Assembly (NCBI GenBank): GCA_008923285.1
Contig: WBSG01000011.1
Location: forward strand, 1 to 64,000
Direction: 5' to 3'
Source: Betaproteobacteria bacterium SCN2
GTDB lineage: Bacteria > Pseudomonadota > Gammaproteobacteria > Burkholderiales > Thiobacillaceae
DNA length: 64,000 bases
Shown here: one piece after another, positions 55,325-62,543 of the stretch
How the letters are laid out: each line of letters starts with the position of its first letter
How positions within the stretch are numbered: position 1 is the first letter of the stretch
Program-made: the position numbers and the translations under genes
Notes under the pieces: generated by a model
Seen by the model: only the letters and a program-made list of their open reading frames with translations
What the model was told of the DNA's origin: nothing
Database searches by the model: none

Positions 55325-55586
55325 GGGTGCTCCGCAGGGGGTTCAAAAAGTCGCATGCAGCATATTCTCGGCTGCACGCCATTTATGCAGATTGGGCGCC
55401 TCTGTCTTATATCAAGACACGGACTGACATAGTCCTGCTTCCGGCGAATCGCCGCCGCGCGGCGCTCGTGCGCCATGTGCGGCACGATTGCTGCAACTAA
55501 TGGCGCCCAGTCCAATCCTAGCAAGGAATGCAGGACGGGTTGCAAGTTTTTCGCCGCCGCAGCCGTCAGATGCCAAGGAGAATGCC

Positions 55587-56525
55587 ATGCGGATCATCGG
55601 ACAAGACGATATTCCCGCCTCGGAAATCACGCCGCGCGAGGTCTACCTCAAGCGCCGCCAATTCATGGCCGGAATCGCGGCCCTGGCGGTCTCGCCCGCA
55701 TTCGCCGCAGCGGCGCCGCCCGTTCGCGGCGCCAGGCTGGCCGGGGTCAAGCCGGGGCGCTTCTCGACCCGCGAAGCCCAGACGCCCTATGAATCCGTCA
55801 CGACCTACAACAACTTCTACGAGTTCGGCACGGGCAAATTCGATCCCGCCGAAAACGCCCACACTCTTAAAACCCGGCCCTGGACGGTATCGGTAGAAGG
55901 AGAAATCAAGCGCCCCAGGCTTTACGACATCGACGAACTGCTCAAGCTCGCGCCGCTGGAGGAGCGCGTTTACCGACTGCGCTGCGTCGAGGGCTGGTCC
56001 ATGGTCATCCCGTGGGTAGGATTTCCGCTTGCCGAACTGATCAGACGGGTAGAGCCCAGCGGCAATGCCCGGTTCGTCGAGTTTCACACCCTGCACGACC
56101 CGGCCCAGATGCCCTTCCAGCGTTCCTCGGTGCTCGACTGGCCTTATGTCGAAGGCTTGCGCATCGACGAGGCGAATCACCCGCTCACCCTGCTGGCAGT
56201 CGGCCTGTATGGCGAAGTGCTGCCCAGGCAGAATGGCGCGCCAGTCCGCCTGGTGGTGCCCTGGAAATACGGATTCAAGAGCGCCAAGTCCATCGTGAAA
56301 ATTCGCTTCGTCGAAAAACCGCCCTTGACCGCCTGGATGCGGGCCGCGCCGAATGAATACGGATTTTTCTCCAACGTGAACCCCAAAGTCGATCACCCGC
56401 GCTGGAGCCAGGCCAAGGAACGCCGCATCGGGGAATTTTTCAAGCGCGATACCTTGATGTTCAACGGCTATGCCGATCAGGTCGCCCACCTCTATCGCGG
56501 CCTGGACTTGCGCAAATTCTTTTGA
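55587..56525 (+). CDS. msrP: MsrP, periplasmic methionine-sulfoxide reductase (molybdoenzyme)
   Basis: 312 residues from ATG 55587, with AAGGAG at its ribosome site. A Tat signal ([20 protein letters not shown]) is followed by the SUOX-fold: Cys133 in [14 protein letters not shown] is the molybdenum ligand, with [16 protein letters not shown]. It repairs oxidised periplasmic proteins with electrons from MsrQ. Paired with the next gene, one base apart. Confidence 0.95.
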
Positions 56526-57185
56526 ATGCCGCTCACGGCCCGCCTGACACCCCGGCAGATCATCTGGAGCAAGGCCCTGCTCTGGGCGATTTGCCTGGCG
56601 CCGTTGCTGCGGCTCGTGGTGCTCGGGCTGAACGGCGGACTGGGCGCCAATCCGATCGAGTTCATCACCCGTTCCACCGGCACCTGGACTCTGGTTGGCC
56701 TGCTGGCGACACTTGCCGTCACCCCCTTGCGCAACCTGAGCGGGCTGAACTGGCTGATCCGTTTTCGCAGGCTGTTAGGCCTGTTCGCCTTTTTCTACGC
56801 CTGCCTGCACTTCACGACTTATCTCTGGCTGGATCAGTTCTTTGACCCGTCCAGCATCGCCAGGGACATCATCAAGCGGCCATTCATCACGGTCGGCTTT
56901 GCCGCCTTCATCCTGCTCATCCCGCTCGCCGCCACCTCCCGCCAGCACATGATGAAGAAGCTTGGACGCAACTGGCAACGCCTGCACCGGCTTGTCTACG
57001 TCATAGCCGGTCTGGGCATCGTGCATTACTGGTGGCTGGTAAAAAAGGACATCAGCCAGCCGCTGCTCTACGCATGCGTGCTCGCCGTTCTATTGGTCAT
57101 GCGGCTGCCCAGGCTTCAGCACAGCCTGCTGGCTCGTGCACGGGATGCCGCCCCGCGAAGCTGCAAGCCAGGTTGCAGGGAATAA
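56526..57185 (+). CDS. msrQ: MsrQ, heme membrane partner of MsrP
   Basis: 219 residues with about six membrane spans of the ferric-reductase-like fold: RRLLGLFAFFYACLHFTTYLWL, RLHRLVYVIAGLGIVHYWWLVKKD hold the conserved His ligands for heme b. It passes electrons from the quinone pool to MsrP. The ATG begins right after the msrP stop. Confidence 0.95.
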   Translation: MPLTARLTPRQIIWSKALLWAICLAPLLRLVVLGLNGGLGANPIEFITRSTGTWTLVGLLATLAVTPLRNLSGLNWLIRFRRLLGLFAFFYACLHFTTYLWLDQFFDPSSIARDIIKRPFITVGFAAFILLIPLAATSRQHMMKKLGRNWQRLHRLVYVIAGLGIVHYWWLVKKDISQPLLYACVLAVLLVMRLPRLQHSLLARARDAAPRSCKPGCRE

Positions 57186-57235: not shown

Positions 57236-57919
57236 TTAGAGCCCGAAGGGCTTGATGACCGGCACGGGGGCCGGGGAAGCGGGAGCAGCCGGTGCCGCTG
57301 CAGGAGCAGGAGCAGGCTTGGGAGCCGCTTTTTTGGGAGCCGCTTTTTTGGCTGCAGGTTTTTTAGCCACGGGCTTTTTTACAGCGGGCTTCTTCGCCGG
57401 TGCTGCCTTCTTGACGGCAGGCTTCTTGGCAGCGGGCTTCTTCGCCGCGGGCTTCCTGGCCGGTGCCGCCTTCTTGGCGACAGGCTTCTTCGCCGCGGGC
57501 TTCCTGGCCGGTGCCGCCTTCTTCGCCGCAGGCTTCTTGGCGGCGACCTTCTTGGCAGCAGGCTTTTTCGCTGCAACTTTCTTCACTGCGGGTTTTTTGG
57601 CGGCGACCTTCTTGGCGGCAGGCTTTTTCGCTGCAACTTTCTTCACTGCGGGTTTTTTGGCGGCGACCTTCTTCGCTACTGGCTTCTTGGCCGCCGGTTT
57701 TTTGGCCGGCGCCGCCTTCTTGGCAGCAGGTTTCTTGGCAGCGGGCTTCTTCACTGCAGGCTTCTTAGCAGCCACCTTCTTGGCCGCCGGTTTCTTGGCA
57801 ACAGGCTTCTTGGCCGGCGCCGCTTTCTTGGCCGCCGGTTTCTTGGCGGCAGGCTTCTTGGCCGGCGCCGCCTTCTTGGCCGCCGGTTTCTTGGCGGCAG
57901 GTTTCTTGGCAGTAGCCAT
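57236..57919 (-). CDS. Histone H1-like Lys/Ala/Pro-rich DNA-binding protein
   Basis: 227 residues made mostly of AAKKPAAKK and [10 protein letters not shown] units, followed by an Ala/Pro tail ending [10 protein letters not shown]. It resembles AlgP/HctB/H1-like proteins of proteobacteria, which bind DNA and may affect compaction or transcription. AAGGAGTGTGATGT before the ATG is a strong ribosome site. The repeat number is likely variable. A 60-base tandem duplication is described separately. Confidence 0.88.
57541..57660. repeat. 60-bp tandem duplication inside the histone-like gene
   Basis: 57541-57600 and 57601-57660 are identical except for one base (position 17 of the unit, GCAGCAGG versus GCGGCAGG). 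Each unit adds exactly 20 codons, so the reading frame is kept. Such near-identity points to a recent slippage or recombination event. Confidence 0.85.
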
Positions 57920-58219
57920 ACATCACACTCCTTCTGAAGTTGGACAAGTCACTACAACTACAAACTTAAAGCGTGCAGTGGTTGGAAATGCACTTCCAAA
58001 GCGTGGCATCCACAACGGCCCCCTGTTCCGAAACCCCCATGGAATGGGCGACACCAAAGCTCCGCTTGGTGACGCTCATTCTAGATACTTTTCCCAGCAG
58101 TTCAACAAACTGTCAAGTTTTTTGCGGATTTTTCGGTCAAAAATGTAGCGGCCCAACAAAAAATATCGATTCGATACTATTTTTGCCAACTTTTCAGAAA
58201 CCGACATGCCGCTTGAAAG
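57920..58219. other. Intergenic region upstream of the histone-like gene
   Basis: 300 bases, AT-richer than the surroundings, with no gene. On the minus strand TTGAAC (58105-58100), a 16-base spacer and TAGAAT (58083-58078) form a fair promoter for the histone-like gene, giving a roughly 160-base leader. A 13-bp palindrome TATCGA-T-TCGATA lies at 58164-58176, flanked by A- and T-runs, beside the 3' end of lysA; it could be an operator or a weak terminator. Confidence 0.45.
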
Positions 58220-59464
58220 CTAGTAAATAAGCCGTTCTCCGGCCATCATCCCGCTCACGGTTTCCCGCTCATGGACAAGATGAATTTCATTTCCGTTCAC
58301 AATGACTTCGGCCGCCCGAGGTCTGCTGTTGTAGTTGGAGCTCATGCTCATACCGTACGCGCCCGCCGCAAGAACTGCGAGCAGCGCCCCCTCCTCTACC
58401 GCCAGATGCCTGCCAAGGCCAATGAAATCGCCGGTTTCACAGACCGGGCCCACCACGTCGCAAGCGACGGGCACAGCCTGCGACTCGCTTACCGGAACAA
58501 TGTCGTGGAAGGCATCGTACAGCGCCGGGCGCATGAGATCGTTCATCGCCGCATCGACGATGACGAAATTCCTGTCTTCTCCGGCCTTGATGTATTCGAC
58601 TCGCGTCAGCAGTATCCCCGCCGCGCCGACCAGCGAGCGCCCGGGCTCCACGATAATCGCCTCATCGCGCCCCTTGAAACGGTCTTGCAGTATCTTCCGG
58701 TATGTCGCCATGTCCGGCGGGGGCTCGTCCTGGTAGCGGATGCCGACTCCGCCGCCGATATCGACATGTCTGAGCCTGATACCGGCGGACCTCAGTTCGT
58801 CGACCAGAACCAGCACCCGGTCAATGGCATCCGCTATGGGCGACAGATCGGTCAGCTGGGAACCGATATGGCAGTCCACTCCATGGATTTCGACGTTCGG
58901 CATGGCGGCCGCGCGGCGATAAAGCGCCGAAGCCTGGCCGATGGCAACCCCGAACTTGTTCTGCTTGAGGCCGGTGGAAATATAGGGATGGGTCTTGGGG
59001 TCAACATCCGGATTGACCCGAAAGGAAACCGGCGCCCGCACGCCCAACTCCGCTGCAATCCGATTCAGCCGTTCGAGCTCGCTTTCCGACTCGACATTGA
59101 AGCAGCGGATATCGGCCTCGAGCGCCATGCGCATTTCCTCCGCCGTCTTGCCCACGCCGGAAAAAACGACCTTGCCGGCCGAGCCGCCGGCGGCGAGCAC
59201 GCGCGCGAGTTCGCCGCCGGAAACGATGTCGAAGCCGGCCCCAAGTCGGGCGAAATGCTGCAGGATGGCGAGGCTGCTGTTGGCCTTGACGGCGTAGCAG
59301 ATCAAGTGAGGCAAGCCTGCGAGCGCCTGCTCGTAGGCCTGATAGGCCTCGTCAAGCGCGGCGCGCGAATACACATATAGCGGCGTACCGTACCGGCGCG
59401 CCAAGTCCTCAAGCGACGCCCCTTCAAGGAAAAGGCGGCCGTCTCTGCGGTGCAAATGGTTCAT
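58220..59464 (-). CDS. lysA: Diaminopimelate decarboxylase
   Basis: 414 residues from ATG 59464 (overlaps the lptM stop, ATGA). PLP-barrel enzyme with the PLP Lys60 in CYAVKANSSLAIL, HIGSQLTDLSPI, DIGGGVGIRYQDE, EPGRSLVG and GPVCETGDF. It makes lysine from meso-DAP. The lptM-lysA order with divergent cyaY is the standard gammaproteo/betaproteobacterial arrangement. Confidence 0.96.
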   Translation of the reverse strand: MNHLHRRDGRLFLEGASLEDLARRYGTPLYVYSRAALDEAYQAYEQALAGLPHLICYAVKANSSLAILQHFARLGAGFDIVSGGELARVLAAGGSAGKVVFSGVGKTAEEMRMALEADIRCFNVESESELERLNRIAAELGVRAPVSFRVNPDVDPKTHPYISTGLKQNKFGVAIGQASALYRRAAAMPNVEIHGVDCHIGSQLTDLSPIADAIDRVLVLVDELRSAGIRLRHVDIGGGVGIRYQDEPPPDMATYRKILQDRFKGRDEAIIVEPGRSLVGAAGILLTRVEYIKAGEDRNFVIVDAAMNDLMRPALYDAFHDIVPVSESQAVPVACDVVGPVCETGDFIGLGRHLAVEEGALLAVLAAGAYGMSMSSNYNSRPRAAEVIVNGNEIHLVHERETVSGMMAGERLIY

Positions 59465-59669: not shown

Positions 59670-59981
59670 ATGAACGACAGCGAATTCATCCAACTGACCG
59701 ACGGCGTCTTCGCCCGCCTGCAGCAAGGCCTGGAAGAGGCCGAACTGGACTTCGAACTGCCGGCGGACGGCATTATCGAGGTCGAATTCGACGATGGCAG
59801 CAAGCTGGTCGTCAACCGCCACAGCGCCGCACGCGAGGTCTGGGTTGCGGCCCGCACCGGCGGCTTCCATTTCCGCCATGACGGCGACTCCTGGAAGGAC
59901 ACGCGCGACGGTGCCGAGCTGTTTGCCAAGCTTGCCGCCCTGATCGAATCCCAGGGCGGCACGGCCGTCAGCTTCGGCTGA
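59670..59981 (+). CDS. cyaY: Frataxin-like iron protein CyaY
   Basis: 103 residues, the usual length: an acidic N-terminal helix (QLTDGVFARLQQGLEEAELDFE), then GIIEVEFDDGSKLVVNRH and VWVAARTGGFHFRHDGDSW, the frataxin beta-sheet. It regulates Fe-S cluster assembly. Divergent from lptM-lysA. Confidence 0.95.
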   Translation: MNDSEFIQLTDGVFARLQQGLEEAELDFELPADGIIEVEFDDGSKLVVNRHSAAREVWVAARTGGFHFRHDGDSWKDTRDGAELFAKLAALIESQGGTAVSFG

Positions 59982-59987
59982 GCCGCC

Positions 59988-60464
59988 TCAGTCCCTCAGG
60001 CTGGAAAACAGATAATTGTTGGCTTTCTGGGGGGCATGGCACTGGAAGCAGGCCTTGGCGGCATCGCCGCCGACAACCGGCCTTTTGGCATCGCCGCCGG
60101 CGAAAGCCTCGAAGCCCCAACCGCCGGTCGACGCATACCTGCGTGCATCGCGCACCATCACCCCCAGCACCTTGCGTTCCCCTTCAATCATGGCGTTGCC
60201 CTCGGTTTTCGCCTCCAGCAGATCGAACACGATCACCGCCCCGTCCCTGAACTGGCCGGTTCGATAGCCCCTGACCGCCTTGGGGTTGGCGTACAAGTGA
60301 TGGATGCCGCCGAACGTGGCATACAGGGCGTGGCCCGGCTTCAGTTCCATCGACTTCACATGCCGCCAGTCCCGATAGTCCTGCGGATAGGGGACACTCG
60401 CCGGTTCGGCAGCCTGGGCGACACAGGCCAGGCCTCCCAGACACGCAAACATCAGTCTCTTCAT
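59988..60464 (-). CDS. Cytochrome P460-family periplasmic protein
   Basis: 158 residues from ATG 60464, with a strong GGAGGG site before it. Signal peptide (LMFACLGGLACVAQA), then HHLYANPKAVRGYRTGQFRDG, YASTGGWGFEAFAGG and the heme c motif CFQCH (139-143) followed by PQKANNYLFS, as in P460/cytochrome c'-beta proteins. Members oxidise hydroxylamine or bind NO in the periplasm. Whether the extra Lys-heme crosslink of true P460 forms cannot be judged. It is divergent from a MarR regulator gene. Confidence 0.82.
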   Translation of the reverse strand: MKRLMFACLGGLACVAQAAEPASVPYPQDYRDWRHVKSMELKPGHALYATFGGIHHLYANPKAVRGYRTGQFRDGAVIVFDLLEAKTEGNAMIEGERKVLGVMVRDARRYASTGGWGFEAFAGGDAKRPVVGGDAAKACFQCHAPQKANNYLFSSLRD

Positions 60465-60486
60465 GACACCCTCCTGAATAAAGTTT

Positions 60487-60508
60487 CGACACGATACGTT
60501 TCGTGTCG
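60487..60508. promoter_or_regulatory. Palindromic operator between P460 gene and MarR regulator
   Basis: CGACACGA (60487-60494), six-base centre, TCGTGTCG (60501-60508): perfect 8-bp arms. It lies 23 bases upstream of the P460 start and 62 before the regulator start, the expected place for a MarR-type operator controlling both divergent genes. Confidence 0.75.
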
Positions 60509-60569
60509 ATACCAGTTTAGGGGAGGGCGTGCTATTGTCAAGGGCACGGCCAGGAACTAGGATGAACCC

Positions 60570-61154
60570 ATGAAAAACCAGGCATTGATCCTGCTGGACA
60601 CGGTGGAACGGCTGGGCAACCTGCTGCGGGTGGGGCTGCGCCAGGCCGGTGTCGCCCAGGGCCTGCAGCCAATCCACCTGCAGGCTCTGCTCTATCTGAA
60701 CGAGGCCAACCGCTACAGCAATACCCCACAGGCACTGGCCGAATACCTGGGCCTGACCAAGGGCACGGTATCGCAAAGCCTGCTGCTGCTTGCCCGGCGC
60801 CGGCTGATCGCACGCCATGCCGACGACAAGGACGGCCGCGTCGTACGGCTGACGCTGACGGACAAGGGCAAGGAAGTATTGAAGGAACTGGGGCTGACGA
60901 ATGCCTGGCGCGACGCGCTGCAGTCCGCCAGCCCCGCCCGCCTGAGTTCGGCCACCAAGGTTTTGAAGGAAGCGCTGGCCACGCTCCAGGCCAGGAACGG
61001 CTACCGCAGCTTCGGCGTATGCGTGACCTGCCGCCATAACCTGCATATCGGCCCGCGCAGTTACGTGTGTGGGCTGACCAAGGAAAAGCTTTCCAGCCGC
61101 GAAGTCAGCAAGATCTGCCGGGAGCACAGCCCGGTCGAAGAAAACGCCGCCTGA
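60570..61154 (+). CDS. MarR-family regulator with C-terminal Cys cluster
   Basis: 194 residues. A MarR winged helix (LHLQALLYLNEA-like IHLQALLYLNEA, LAEYLGLTKGTVSQSLLLLARR, KDGRVVRLTLTDKGKEVL) fills residues 1-140. A C-terminal extension holds Cys151, Cys154, Cys167 and Cys183 with His156 and His186 (GVCVTCRHNLHIGPRSYVC ... KICREH). Four Cys plus His suggest a Zn or Fe-S site, perhaps the redox or NO sensor. It probably represses the adjacent P460 gene. AGGAACTAGG precedes the ATG. Confidence 0.82.
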   Translation: MKNQALILLDTVERLGNLLRVGLRQAGVAQGLQPIHLQALLYLNEANRYSNTPQALAEYLGLTKGTVSQSLLLLARRRLIARHADDKDGRVVRLTLTDKGKEVLKELGLTNAWRDALQSASPARLSSATKVLKEALATLQARNGYRSFGVCVTCRHNLHIGPRSYVCGLTKEKLSSREVSKICREHSPVEENAA

Positions 61155-62543
61155 CTATTTGCTCGAAATCGTCGCGCGCGCCCGCACGATAGCCGCTTTG
61201 ACCTGCTCGGGCGCAGTGCCGCCGACATGGTTGCGGGCGGCAAGCGAGCCTTCCAGTGTCAGCACCGCAAAAACATCCCCCCCCACCAGGGGGCTGAAGG
61301 CCTGCAGGTCGGCCAAGGGCAGGTCGGCCAGGTCGCAGCCCTTGCCCTCGGCTGCGCGCACGGCACGCGCCACCGCCTCGTGGGCATCACGAAAAGGCAG
61401 GCCTTTCTTGACCAGGTAGTCGGCAAAATCGGTCGCGGTCGAGAAGCCCTCGGCGGCCGCGCGGCGCATCGCCTCCGGCCGCACTCGCACCCCCTTGAGC
61501 ATATCGGCGTAGATGGTCAGGGTATCCAGCAGGGTGTCCACGGTATCGAACAGCGGCTCCTTGTCTTCCTGGTTGTCCTTGTTGTAGGCCAGCGGCTGGC
61601 CTTTCATCAGGGTCAACAACCCCATCAGGTGGCCAAAAACCCGCCCTGTCTTGCCGCGCACCAGTTCCGGCACGTCTGGGTTCTTCTTCTGCGGCATGAT
61701 GGAGGAGCCGGTACAGAAGCGGTCAGCCAGGTCGATGAAGCCGAAGCGCGGGCTCATCCACAGGATCAACTCTTCCGACAGGCGCGACAGATGAACCATG
61801 ACGAGCGAGGCCGCGGCGGAAAATTCGATGGCGAAGTCGCGGTCCGACACGGCATCCAGGGAATTTCCGCACACCTCGTCGAAGCCCAGTTCGCGCGCCA
61901 CGAACTCCCGGTCGATCGGGTAGCTGGTGCCGGCCAGCGCCGCCGCCCCCAGCGGCAGGCGATTGATGCGGCGACGGCAGTCCGCCATGCGCGCGTGGTC
62001 GCGTGCGAGCATTTCGAAGTAGGCCAGCATGTGGTGGCCAAATGTCACCGGCTGCGCCACCTGCATGTGGGTGAAACCGGGCATGACGGTGGCCGCGTGC
62101 TCTTCGGCCAGGTCGAGCAGGGAGTTCTGGCAGGCACGGAGGCCGGACTGGATGCGGTCGACGGCATCGCGCAGGTAGAGGCGCACGTCGGTCGCCACCT
62201 GGTCATTGCGCGAGCGCCCGGTGTGCAGGCGCTTGCCGGCATCGCCGATCCTGGCGGTCAGCGCCTTTTCTATATTGAGGTGCACGTCCTCCAGGTCGAG
62301 CGACCACTCGAAACGGCCGGCGCGAATCTCCTGCAGGATGTCGGTCAGGCCGCGCTCGATGGCGGCCATATCCTCCGCCGTCAGCACGCCGACATGGCGC
62401 AACATGCGGGCATGGGCAAGCGAGCCCTTTATATCGAACTCGGCCAGCCGATAATCAAAGGGAATCGAAGCCGTGTAGCGCTTGACCAGTTCGTCGACCG
62501 GTTCGGAGAAACGGCCCGACCAGGCCCCGGAAGTCTTTTCCAT
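61155..62543 (-). CDS. argH: Argininosuccinate lyase
   Basis: 462 residues with [53 protein letters not shown] and the signature loop [16 protein letters not shown] with the catalytic Ser. Last step of arginine synthesis. Its 3' end meets that of the MarR gene (stop codons adjoin). Divergent from the AlgZ-like kinase, an order also seen in Pseudomonas. Confidence 0.96.

Follow-up and report, generated by a model that had tools for sequence, protein, structure and literature searches.

The Pfam family PF16694, 'Cytochrome_P460', spans two kinds of protein, P460 and cytochrome c'-beta. According to the review PMC11928373, the diagnostic positions are the cross-link Lys, the proton-accepting carboxylate and the capping residue, the c'-beta proteins of its Table 2 do not oxidise NH2OH, and peroxidase-like activity is reported for NeCP-beta. 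Structures of c'-beta have been solved, yet a term search of this review returned no description of regulation and no discussion of an operon, gene cluster or regulator. Among regulators, ArnR is NO-responsive and represses hmp, the gene of an NO-detoxifying haem protein (PMC12343034). The accessory subunits of glycyl-radical enzymes have a HiPIP-like fold and bind a [4Fe-4S] cluster via CX2CXnCXnC (PMC12358834). In a stretch of 64,000 nucleotides from Betaproteobacteria bacterium SCN2 (contig WBSG01000011.1, positions 1 to 64,000; hereafter the window), a c'-beta gene stands back to back with the gene of a MarR-family regulator that ends in a Cys cluster. We propose that this MarR is an autoregulated, probably Fe-S repressor of an NO-binding c'-beta, which would be released by NO and would also act at a linked HC2 gene; for this reading as a whole our belief and doubt are evenly balanced.

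A divergent pair of cytochrome c'-beta and MarR genes

An earlier note on this DNA had placed a divergent cytochrome/MarR gene pair at 59988-61154, and both ORFs were found there, with an intergenic gap of 105 bp between them. The locus and its surroundings hold the following features.

57236..57919, minus strand: histone H1-like (HC2) nucleoid protein gene, Lys/Ala-rich (PF07382, E 4.2e-27); proposed target
58078..58083, minus strand: putative -10 (TAGAAT) for the H1-like gene, some 87 bp away from the centre of the third site
58163..58177, no strand: third operator-like site (ATATCGATTCGATAC), 5' of the histone H1-like gene
58220..59464, minus strand: lysA, syntenic neighbour
59670..59981, plus strand: cyaY (frataxin; PF01491, E 2.6e-21), syntenic neighbour
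59988..60464, minus strand: cytochrome c'-beta gene, 158 aa, one CFQCH haem motif, Pfam PF16694
60483..60512, no strand: shared candidate operator, two abutting 15-bp GTATCG-N3-CGATAC-type sites
60514..60541, minus strand: predicted c'-beta promoter TTGACA-16-TAAACT, sigma-70-like, from a pattern scan; similar layout in relatives
60535..60563, plus strand: predicted MarR promoter TTGTCA-17-TAGGAT, from a pattern scan, matching the consensus at 9/12 positions only
60570..61154, plus strand: MarR-family regulator with Cys tail, 194 aa (PF12802, E 7.2e-13, above cut-off)
61020..61118, plus strand: Cys-cluster codons (Cys151..Cys183), predicted HiPIP-like or zinc-ribbon-like tail
61155..62543, minus strand: argH, syntenic neighbour

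Past the H1-like gene, at 55488-57185, Pfam domains mark a molybdopterin-domain oxidoreductase gene and a ferric-reductase-like membrane gene, a pair that we take to be MsrP/MsrQ-like. A scan of NCBIfam gave no family above cut-off.

The cytochrome, whose N-terminus was judged by eye to be signal-peptide-like, matches PF16694 at E 2.6e-32 and carries the CXXCH motif as CFQCH. Its best PDB sequence match was the c'-beta structure 6hih (E 4.3e-48), with 7ead also matching (E 2.9e-45), while chains named cytochrome P460 matched far less (E 4.8e-16 to 3.8e-9). By alignment, Phe80 stands at the position of the cross-link Lys, Gly101 at that of the distal Glu/Asp carboxylate and Phe51 at that of the cap, all three being hydrophobic or small residues. 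The counterparts in McCP-beta, in a numbering matched in this analysis, are Phe61, Gly82 and Phe32, and the deposited variants 7zs4 and 7zqz alter two Phe residues that we take to be 32 and 61. A c'-beta profile scan of named genomes gave 349 confirmed places, of which the best 80, nearest to the window's protein, were kept, so this sample leans to close relatives. In these best 80 of 349 c'-beta loci each Phe was present in 80/80, and the Gly in 79/80 with Ala in the remaining one (1/80). By these residues the window's cytochrome is a cytochrome c'-beta and not a true P460.

This result divides what the earlier note had called a P460 cytochrome: membership of PF16694 held, and the identity as a true P460 fell, since both the diagnostic residues and the best PDB match are those of c'-beta. 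Binding of a gas (NO) is expected of the protein, and hydroxylamine oxidation is not expected because the three diagnostic residues are of the c'-beta type. The earlier suggestion of a hydroxylamine-responsive, detoxifying role, with a catalytic P460 as the working enzyme, has family membership on its side; compared with Table 2 of PMC11928373, however, Phe and Gly occupy the positions where a Lys and a proton-relay carboxylate belong. We rejected it on these diagnostic residues and regard it as extremely improbable.

The Cys tail of the regulator

The C-terminal extension described in the earlier note, C-x2-C-x12-C-x15-C, was exact in the translated MarR (Cys151-x2-Cys154-x12-Cys167-x15-Cys183), which is the sole match to itself in the host genome at E values up to 0.001. 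All four Cys residues are invariant across an alignment of named sequences that contains the window's (31/31). The full-length model had a mean pLDDT of 85.3, with blocks of residues 151-180 at 90-91, and in a fold search with it the 50 matches listed were ordinary MarR proteins. No Rrf2 domain matched the window's MarR in Pfam at E values up to 1.

Modelled alone, the tail reached a pLDDT of 78, and a structure search with this isolated model gave no significant match. Its top structural match, which is weak (Foldseek E 0.4, probability 0.89), was the glycyl-radical-enzyme chain 2y8n_B, superposed with a Z of 3.3 and an rmsd of 2.3 over 44. Four chains reached Z 2 or more (range 2.0-3.3), namely 2y8n_B, chain B of 9pzj and of 4pkf (benzylsuccinate synthase) and the HiPIP 1hip; ribosomal and zinc proteins appear further down the Foldseek list, and matches of this strength do not suffice to assign the fold. 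The spacing of the tail agrees in 31/31 sequences with the CX2CXnCXnC motif of HiPIP-like [4Fe-4S] domains. A tail profile found no match among solved (PDB) sequences, and a further PDB sequence search returned a single zinc-finger chain at E 0.43. The earlier view that the extension suits a metal or Fe-S site is supported by four invariant Cys residues, a confidently predicted fold and a weak HiPIP-like match. The tail probably holds a metal, and we give Fe-S a modest lead over zinc.

The same tail could instead form a structural or sensory zinc site, through which the MarR would sense metal or thiol redox state (oxidants, thiol depletion) and place c'-beta, which might then work as a weak peroxidase, in a general redox response. 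We consider this possible, though on the unlikely side. Pfam scans lean weakly to zinc ribbons (DZR_2 in 11/31 tails, best E 0.001; no zinc-ribbon match in the window's own tail), but the tail has one CxxC knuckle, not two, and its four matches at Z 2 or more, weak as they are, are all Fe-S protein chains. The surroundings of the genes also speak for such redox sensing: an ORF with an FQMLCPGC-type thioredoxin-fold motif accompanies c'-beta in 21 of the best 80 of 349 loci (the AhpC/TSA label for these ORFs comes from two other such proteins), stray MarR copies have an AhpC-type gene alongside (L191) or 1.5 kb away (L187), and the activity reported for NeCP-beta (PMC11928373) is peroxidase-like. 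We retain as the preferred reading a metal centre that is most likely a HiPIP-like [4Fe-4S] cluster.

The shared candidate operator and the recurrence of the pair

The earlier note had seen a perfect palindrome between the two genes. Its 9-bp arms are indeed perfect, around a 6-bp spacer (60486-60509), while the whole element at 60483-60512 reaches 87% complementarity. Nothing else in the window matched the palindrome when up to 3 mismatches were allowed (a mean of 0.01 matches in shuffled sequence). Genome-wide, two further places matched with 3 mismatches and a reversed control pattern gave as many hits (3 vs 3), which leaves the zero-mismatch place as the one that stands out. The operator is best read as two abutting 15-bp sites, 60483-60497 and 60498-60512, each of the form GTATCG-N3-CGATAC with one mismatch. 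These 30 bp start at the second base past the predicted c'-beta -10, and the predicted MarR promoter shares bases with the c'-beta -35. Between the predicted MarR -10 and the ATG there are 6 nt (60558-60572), and the MarR transcript would be leaderless if both start codon and promoter are right.

In the c'-beta/MarR intergenic regions of 26 named pairs and the window, the core ATCG-N3-CGAT was exact in 24/27 (shuffle mean 0.23 exact) and had one mismatch in the other 3/27. A promoter was found, by a lax criterion, in 24/27 regions; in these a site centre lies 4-24 nt past the -10, at 12-16 nt in 16 of the 24. Two abutting sites are present in the window and its five Thiobacillus-type relatives. 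The shared operator of the earlier note becomes a candidate operator with a conserved core, and the conserved palindrome fits the MarR habit of binding a palindromic operator by the regulator's own gene. Its placement is the layout of a repressor site, from which we infer repression. A scan had flagged the palindrome as a terminator, which we rejected in view of its place at the promoter and the conservation of its core from pair to pair.

The search for the same pair in other genomes, proposed in the earlier note, showed that the pair recurs, and its uniqueness to this genome was rejected: a MarR of the Cys-tail type adjoins c'-beta in 31 of the best 80 of 349 loci. Divergent MarRs of the window's family account for 26 of these, 25 with the Cys tail visible and one cut by a contig end. 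In the other five (L094, L118, L136, L140, L141) a second, remote Cys-tail MarR, of the CVTCRHF... type, is encoded immediately upstream of c'-beta and in the same direction. A divergent HxlR-type regulator, found with a profile built from two such proteins (one member Pfam-checked), lies within 1.5 kb in 40 of the best 80 of 349 loci (within L065-L144), and since this is half of them, c'-beta does not need this MarR. HxlR and Cys-tail MarR never occurred at one locus (0 of the best 80 of 349); neither type was found at 9 of these 80, two of them cut, and L129 and L132 offered under 300 bp of upstream sequence in this census. A small thioredoxin-like gene with a CPVC-type motif stands between operator and c'-beta in L078, L085 and L130, and by eye in L095 (Pfam-checked for L078 only).

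Starting from the regulator gave a complementary picture. A MarR relative (E 1e-12 or better) was present in 30/300 genomes of the order; within 1.5-kb flanks, lysA neighbours it in 24/30, cyaY in 18/30 and c'-beta in 4/30 including the window, and in a fifth c'-beta pair the partner is a second copy of the MarR. Thiobacillus, Hydrogenophilaceae and a single unplaced proteobacterial genome supply the nearest named MarRs. A tree was built from 57 MarR sequences, leaving out L020, L026, L030 and L139, which are incomplete or remote, as well as the second copies of L190-L192. In it the lysA-linked rows, the window's MarR among them, formed one clade of 28 rows, clade A, with support of 93/96, just under the tool's star. 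Twenty c'-beta-paired MarRs formed a separate clade (97/81). In many relatives cyaY precedes MarR with no c'-beta between them; the Thiobacillus-type subclade (6 rows, 100/97) is the only group in clade A with c'-beta between the two, and its next relative, L002, lacks c'-beta there. A c'-beta tree grouped the same six rows (100/99) and did not resolve the source of the Thiobacillus c'-beta. The older signal of this MarR need not be NO, because 22/28 clade A rows have no c'-beta next door. Stray copies of the regulator have other neighbours: at L191 (4917-6653) a Cys-tail MarR is divergent from an AhpC-like gene that is followed by a truncated-globin gene, a neighbourhood that points to haem, gas and redox chemistry, and at L187 the gene 1.5 kb away is of the FQMLCPGC/AhpC type.

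The linked histone H1-like gene and the proposed switch

With up to 1 mismatch, the host genome holds only three GTATCG-N3-CGATAC sites (reversed control 1), two in the shared operator and the third at 58163-58177, between lysA and the H1-like gene. The third site lies 2.3 kb from the shared operator and about 250 bp upstream of the start of the H1-like gene, and it is kept in relatives. At the clade A MarR loci the HC2-lysA spacer carried a site with at most 2 mismatches in 25/25, the best site having 0, 1 and 2 mismatches in 4, 11 and 10 loci, respectively; shuffled spacers gave a mean of 0.14 loci with up to 2 mismatches. Descent shared among loci is uncorrected in this control, as in the shuffles of the intergenic regions. 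L170, L178 and L185, counted outside the 25 since a contig or gene is cut, all had sites with up to 2 mismatches. For comparison we picked 28 genomes without a MarR match at 1e-12, of which one gave no lysA. An H1-like gene follows lysA in 8/27 of those with lysA, and 1/8 spacers has a site, with 2 mismatches (in L214 no sequence extends beyond lysA, and G006, 68% complete, was left out).

Exact 15-bp sites numbered 17 in 24 MarR genomes (reversed control 1; the genomes behind L020 and L026 were left out) versus 9 in 24 of the 28 MarR-less genomes, where a single genome supplied 17 of the 18 reversed-control hits. Before H1-like genes lie 6/17 of the exact sites with MarR and 0/9 of those without, and 4/17 lie before MarR itself. 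Place, not count (about twofold), separates the exact sites of the two sets. In G280, the ends of contigs C61 and C126 overlap by 141 identical bases, so that of its three exact sites two probably represent a single site that is counted twice among the 17; this doubled site belongs to the usual lysA-HC2 spacer, and only the copy on C107 is unlinked. Among the unlinked H1-like copies read in MarR genomes, 1/6 has a site, the exact one on C107 of G280. The five others, which came from a search of 22 genomes (11 of its 26 loci read, a recognisable Lys/Ala-rich start being required) and include three counterparts from the genus of G280, have none within 2 mismatches. The conservation of the spacer site and its absence without MarR make control of the linked HC2 gene by the MarR likely, while most unlinked H1-like copies have no site, so such control is not general among H1-like genes.

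A TCACC element close to the likely H1-like start lies 71-72, 83, 91-92 or 98-101 bp from the nearest site centre in 23/25 loci, the exceptions being L167 (174) and L181, which has no TCACC element. Helical phasing was considered; as just three of the four distance classes agree with a 10.5-bp period, we claim only an upstream position for the site. This position, 71-101 bp upstream in 23/25 loci, suits an activator or modulator better than a blocker.

These data also bear on a reading in which the MarR primarily serves its own locus. The far site, 2 kb away past lysA, would then be an auxiliary operator (e.g. in DNA looping) or serve HC2, and the Thiobacillus c'-beta would be a late insertion reading from the MarR control region under a signal other than NO. 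The lysA (24/30) and cyaY (18/30) neighbours, the 22/28 clade A rows without adjacent c'-beta, the far site kept across clade A loci and the unlinked H1-like copies that mostly lack a site are all consistent with it. Yet other MarR clades pair with c'-beta using the same operator core, the doubled operator is kept in five Thiobacillus-type relatives, and the far site keeps a narrow distance range to the putative H1-like start. We think this reading doubtful, and continue with the NO-released repressor.

The host encodes a cd1 nitrite reductase (NirS) and NorB and therefore should make NO. The idea of a switch in a detoxifying context survives in part, carried by the recurrent divergent pair, the conserved operator and the denitrifying host, while hydroxylamine drops out. 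Genes, residues, operator conservation, recurrence of the pair and the co-occurrence of the linked HC2 site with MarR are read from the sequence, which makes a recurrent regulatory pair with a conserved operator real at that level. As to DNA binding, repression, the identity of the metal, NO as the signal, and HC2 control with its sign, we infer the following course. In a Thiobacillus-like denitrifier, the cluster would sit in the C-terminal Cys domain of the MarR, and a MarR dimer on the two abutting GTATCG-N3-CGATAC sites past the c'-beta -10 would block c'-beta and also regulate the MarR gene itself. A response to NO is plausible: NO, or damage to the cluster, would destroy it and make the repressor release the DNA, whereupon the periplasmic, NO-binding c'-beta would be made. 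The MarR would also bind before the linked HC2 gene, where the position of the site suggests activation or modulation rather than blocking.

The wider claim is of a MarR family whose winged helix is joined to a HiPIP-like [4Fe-4S] domain serving as a sensor of NO or Fe-S status and, in one lineage, of a three-gene regulon (the MarR itself, an NO sink and a histone H1-like protein) through which nitrosative stress would affect the packing of the nucleoid, with one promoter blocked and another acted on from upstream; we put it forward tentatively, as unlikely to hold in full. With a third copy of the switch before the nearby histone-like gene, defence against nitric oxide may be tied to DNA packing through this regulator; the link to that gene is the less expected part of the finding. 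The conserved site there raises the question whether the DNA of these bacteria is packed differently under nitrosative stress. Through the pair and its operator the signal for c'-beta becomes testable, and a tail that proved to be a HiPIP-like Fe-S domain would represent one more design for an NO or Fe-S sensor. The earlier note did not recognise the pair as a described one, and likewise we recognised no paper describing the pair or regulon, or MarR control of H1-like (HC2) proteins, in the open-access literature, represented mostly by titles and abstract starts and with subscription journals largely outside it.

Among known systems, McCP-beta of Methylococcus capsulatus (6hih) shares with the window's c'-beta the fold family, the Phe cap, the Phe at the Lys position and the Gly at the carboxylate position, whereas the window's gene is divergently paired with a Cys-tail MarR. 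The HiPIP-like accessory subunits (2y8n_B; chain B of 4pkf and 9pzj) and HiPIPs have CX2CXnCXnC in common with the tail and are its best, though weak, structural matches; they are separate enzyme subunits or electron carriers, while here the motif forms the tail of a DNA-binding protein with no sequence match to them. The proposed second target belongs to the HC2-type bacterial histone H1-like proteins (PF07382). NsrR, an Fe-S repressor of NO-detoxifying genes (PMC12343034), resembles the proposed MarR in role but is of the Rrf2 family. The nearest functional analogue that we found is ArnR of Corynebacterium glutamicum, a winged-helix protein with a C-terminal Cys-bound [4Fe-4S] cluster (PMC12343034), likened here by description alone: it has three conserved Cys residues against four in the window's MarR, occurs almost exclusively in Actinobacteria and acts on other targets.
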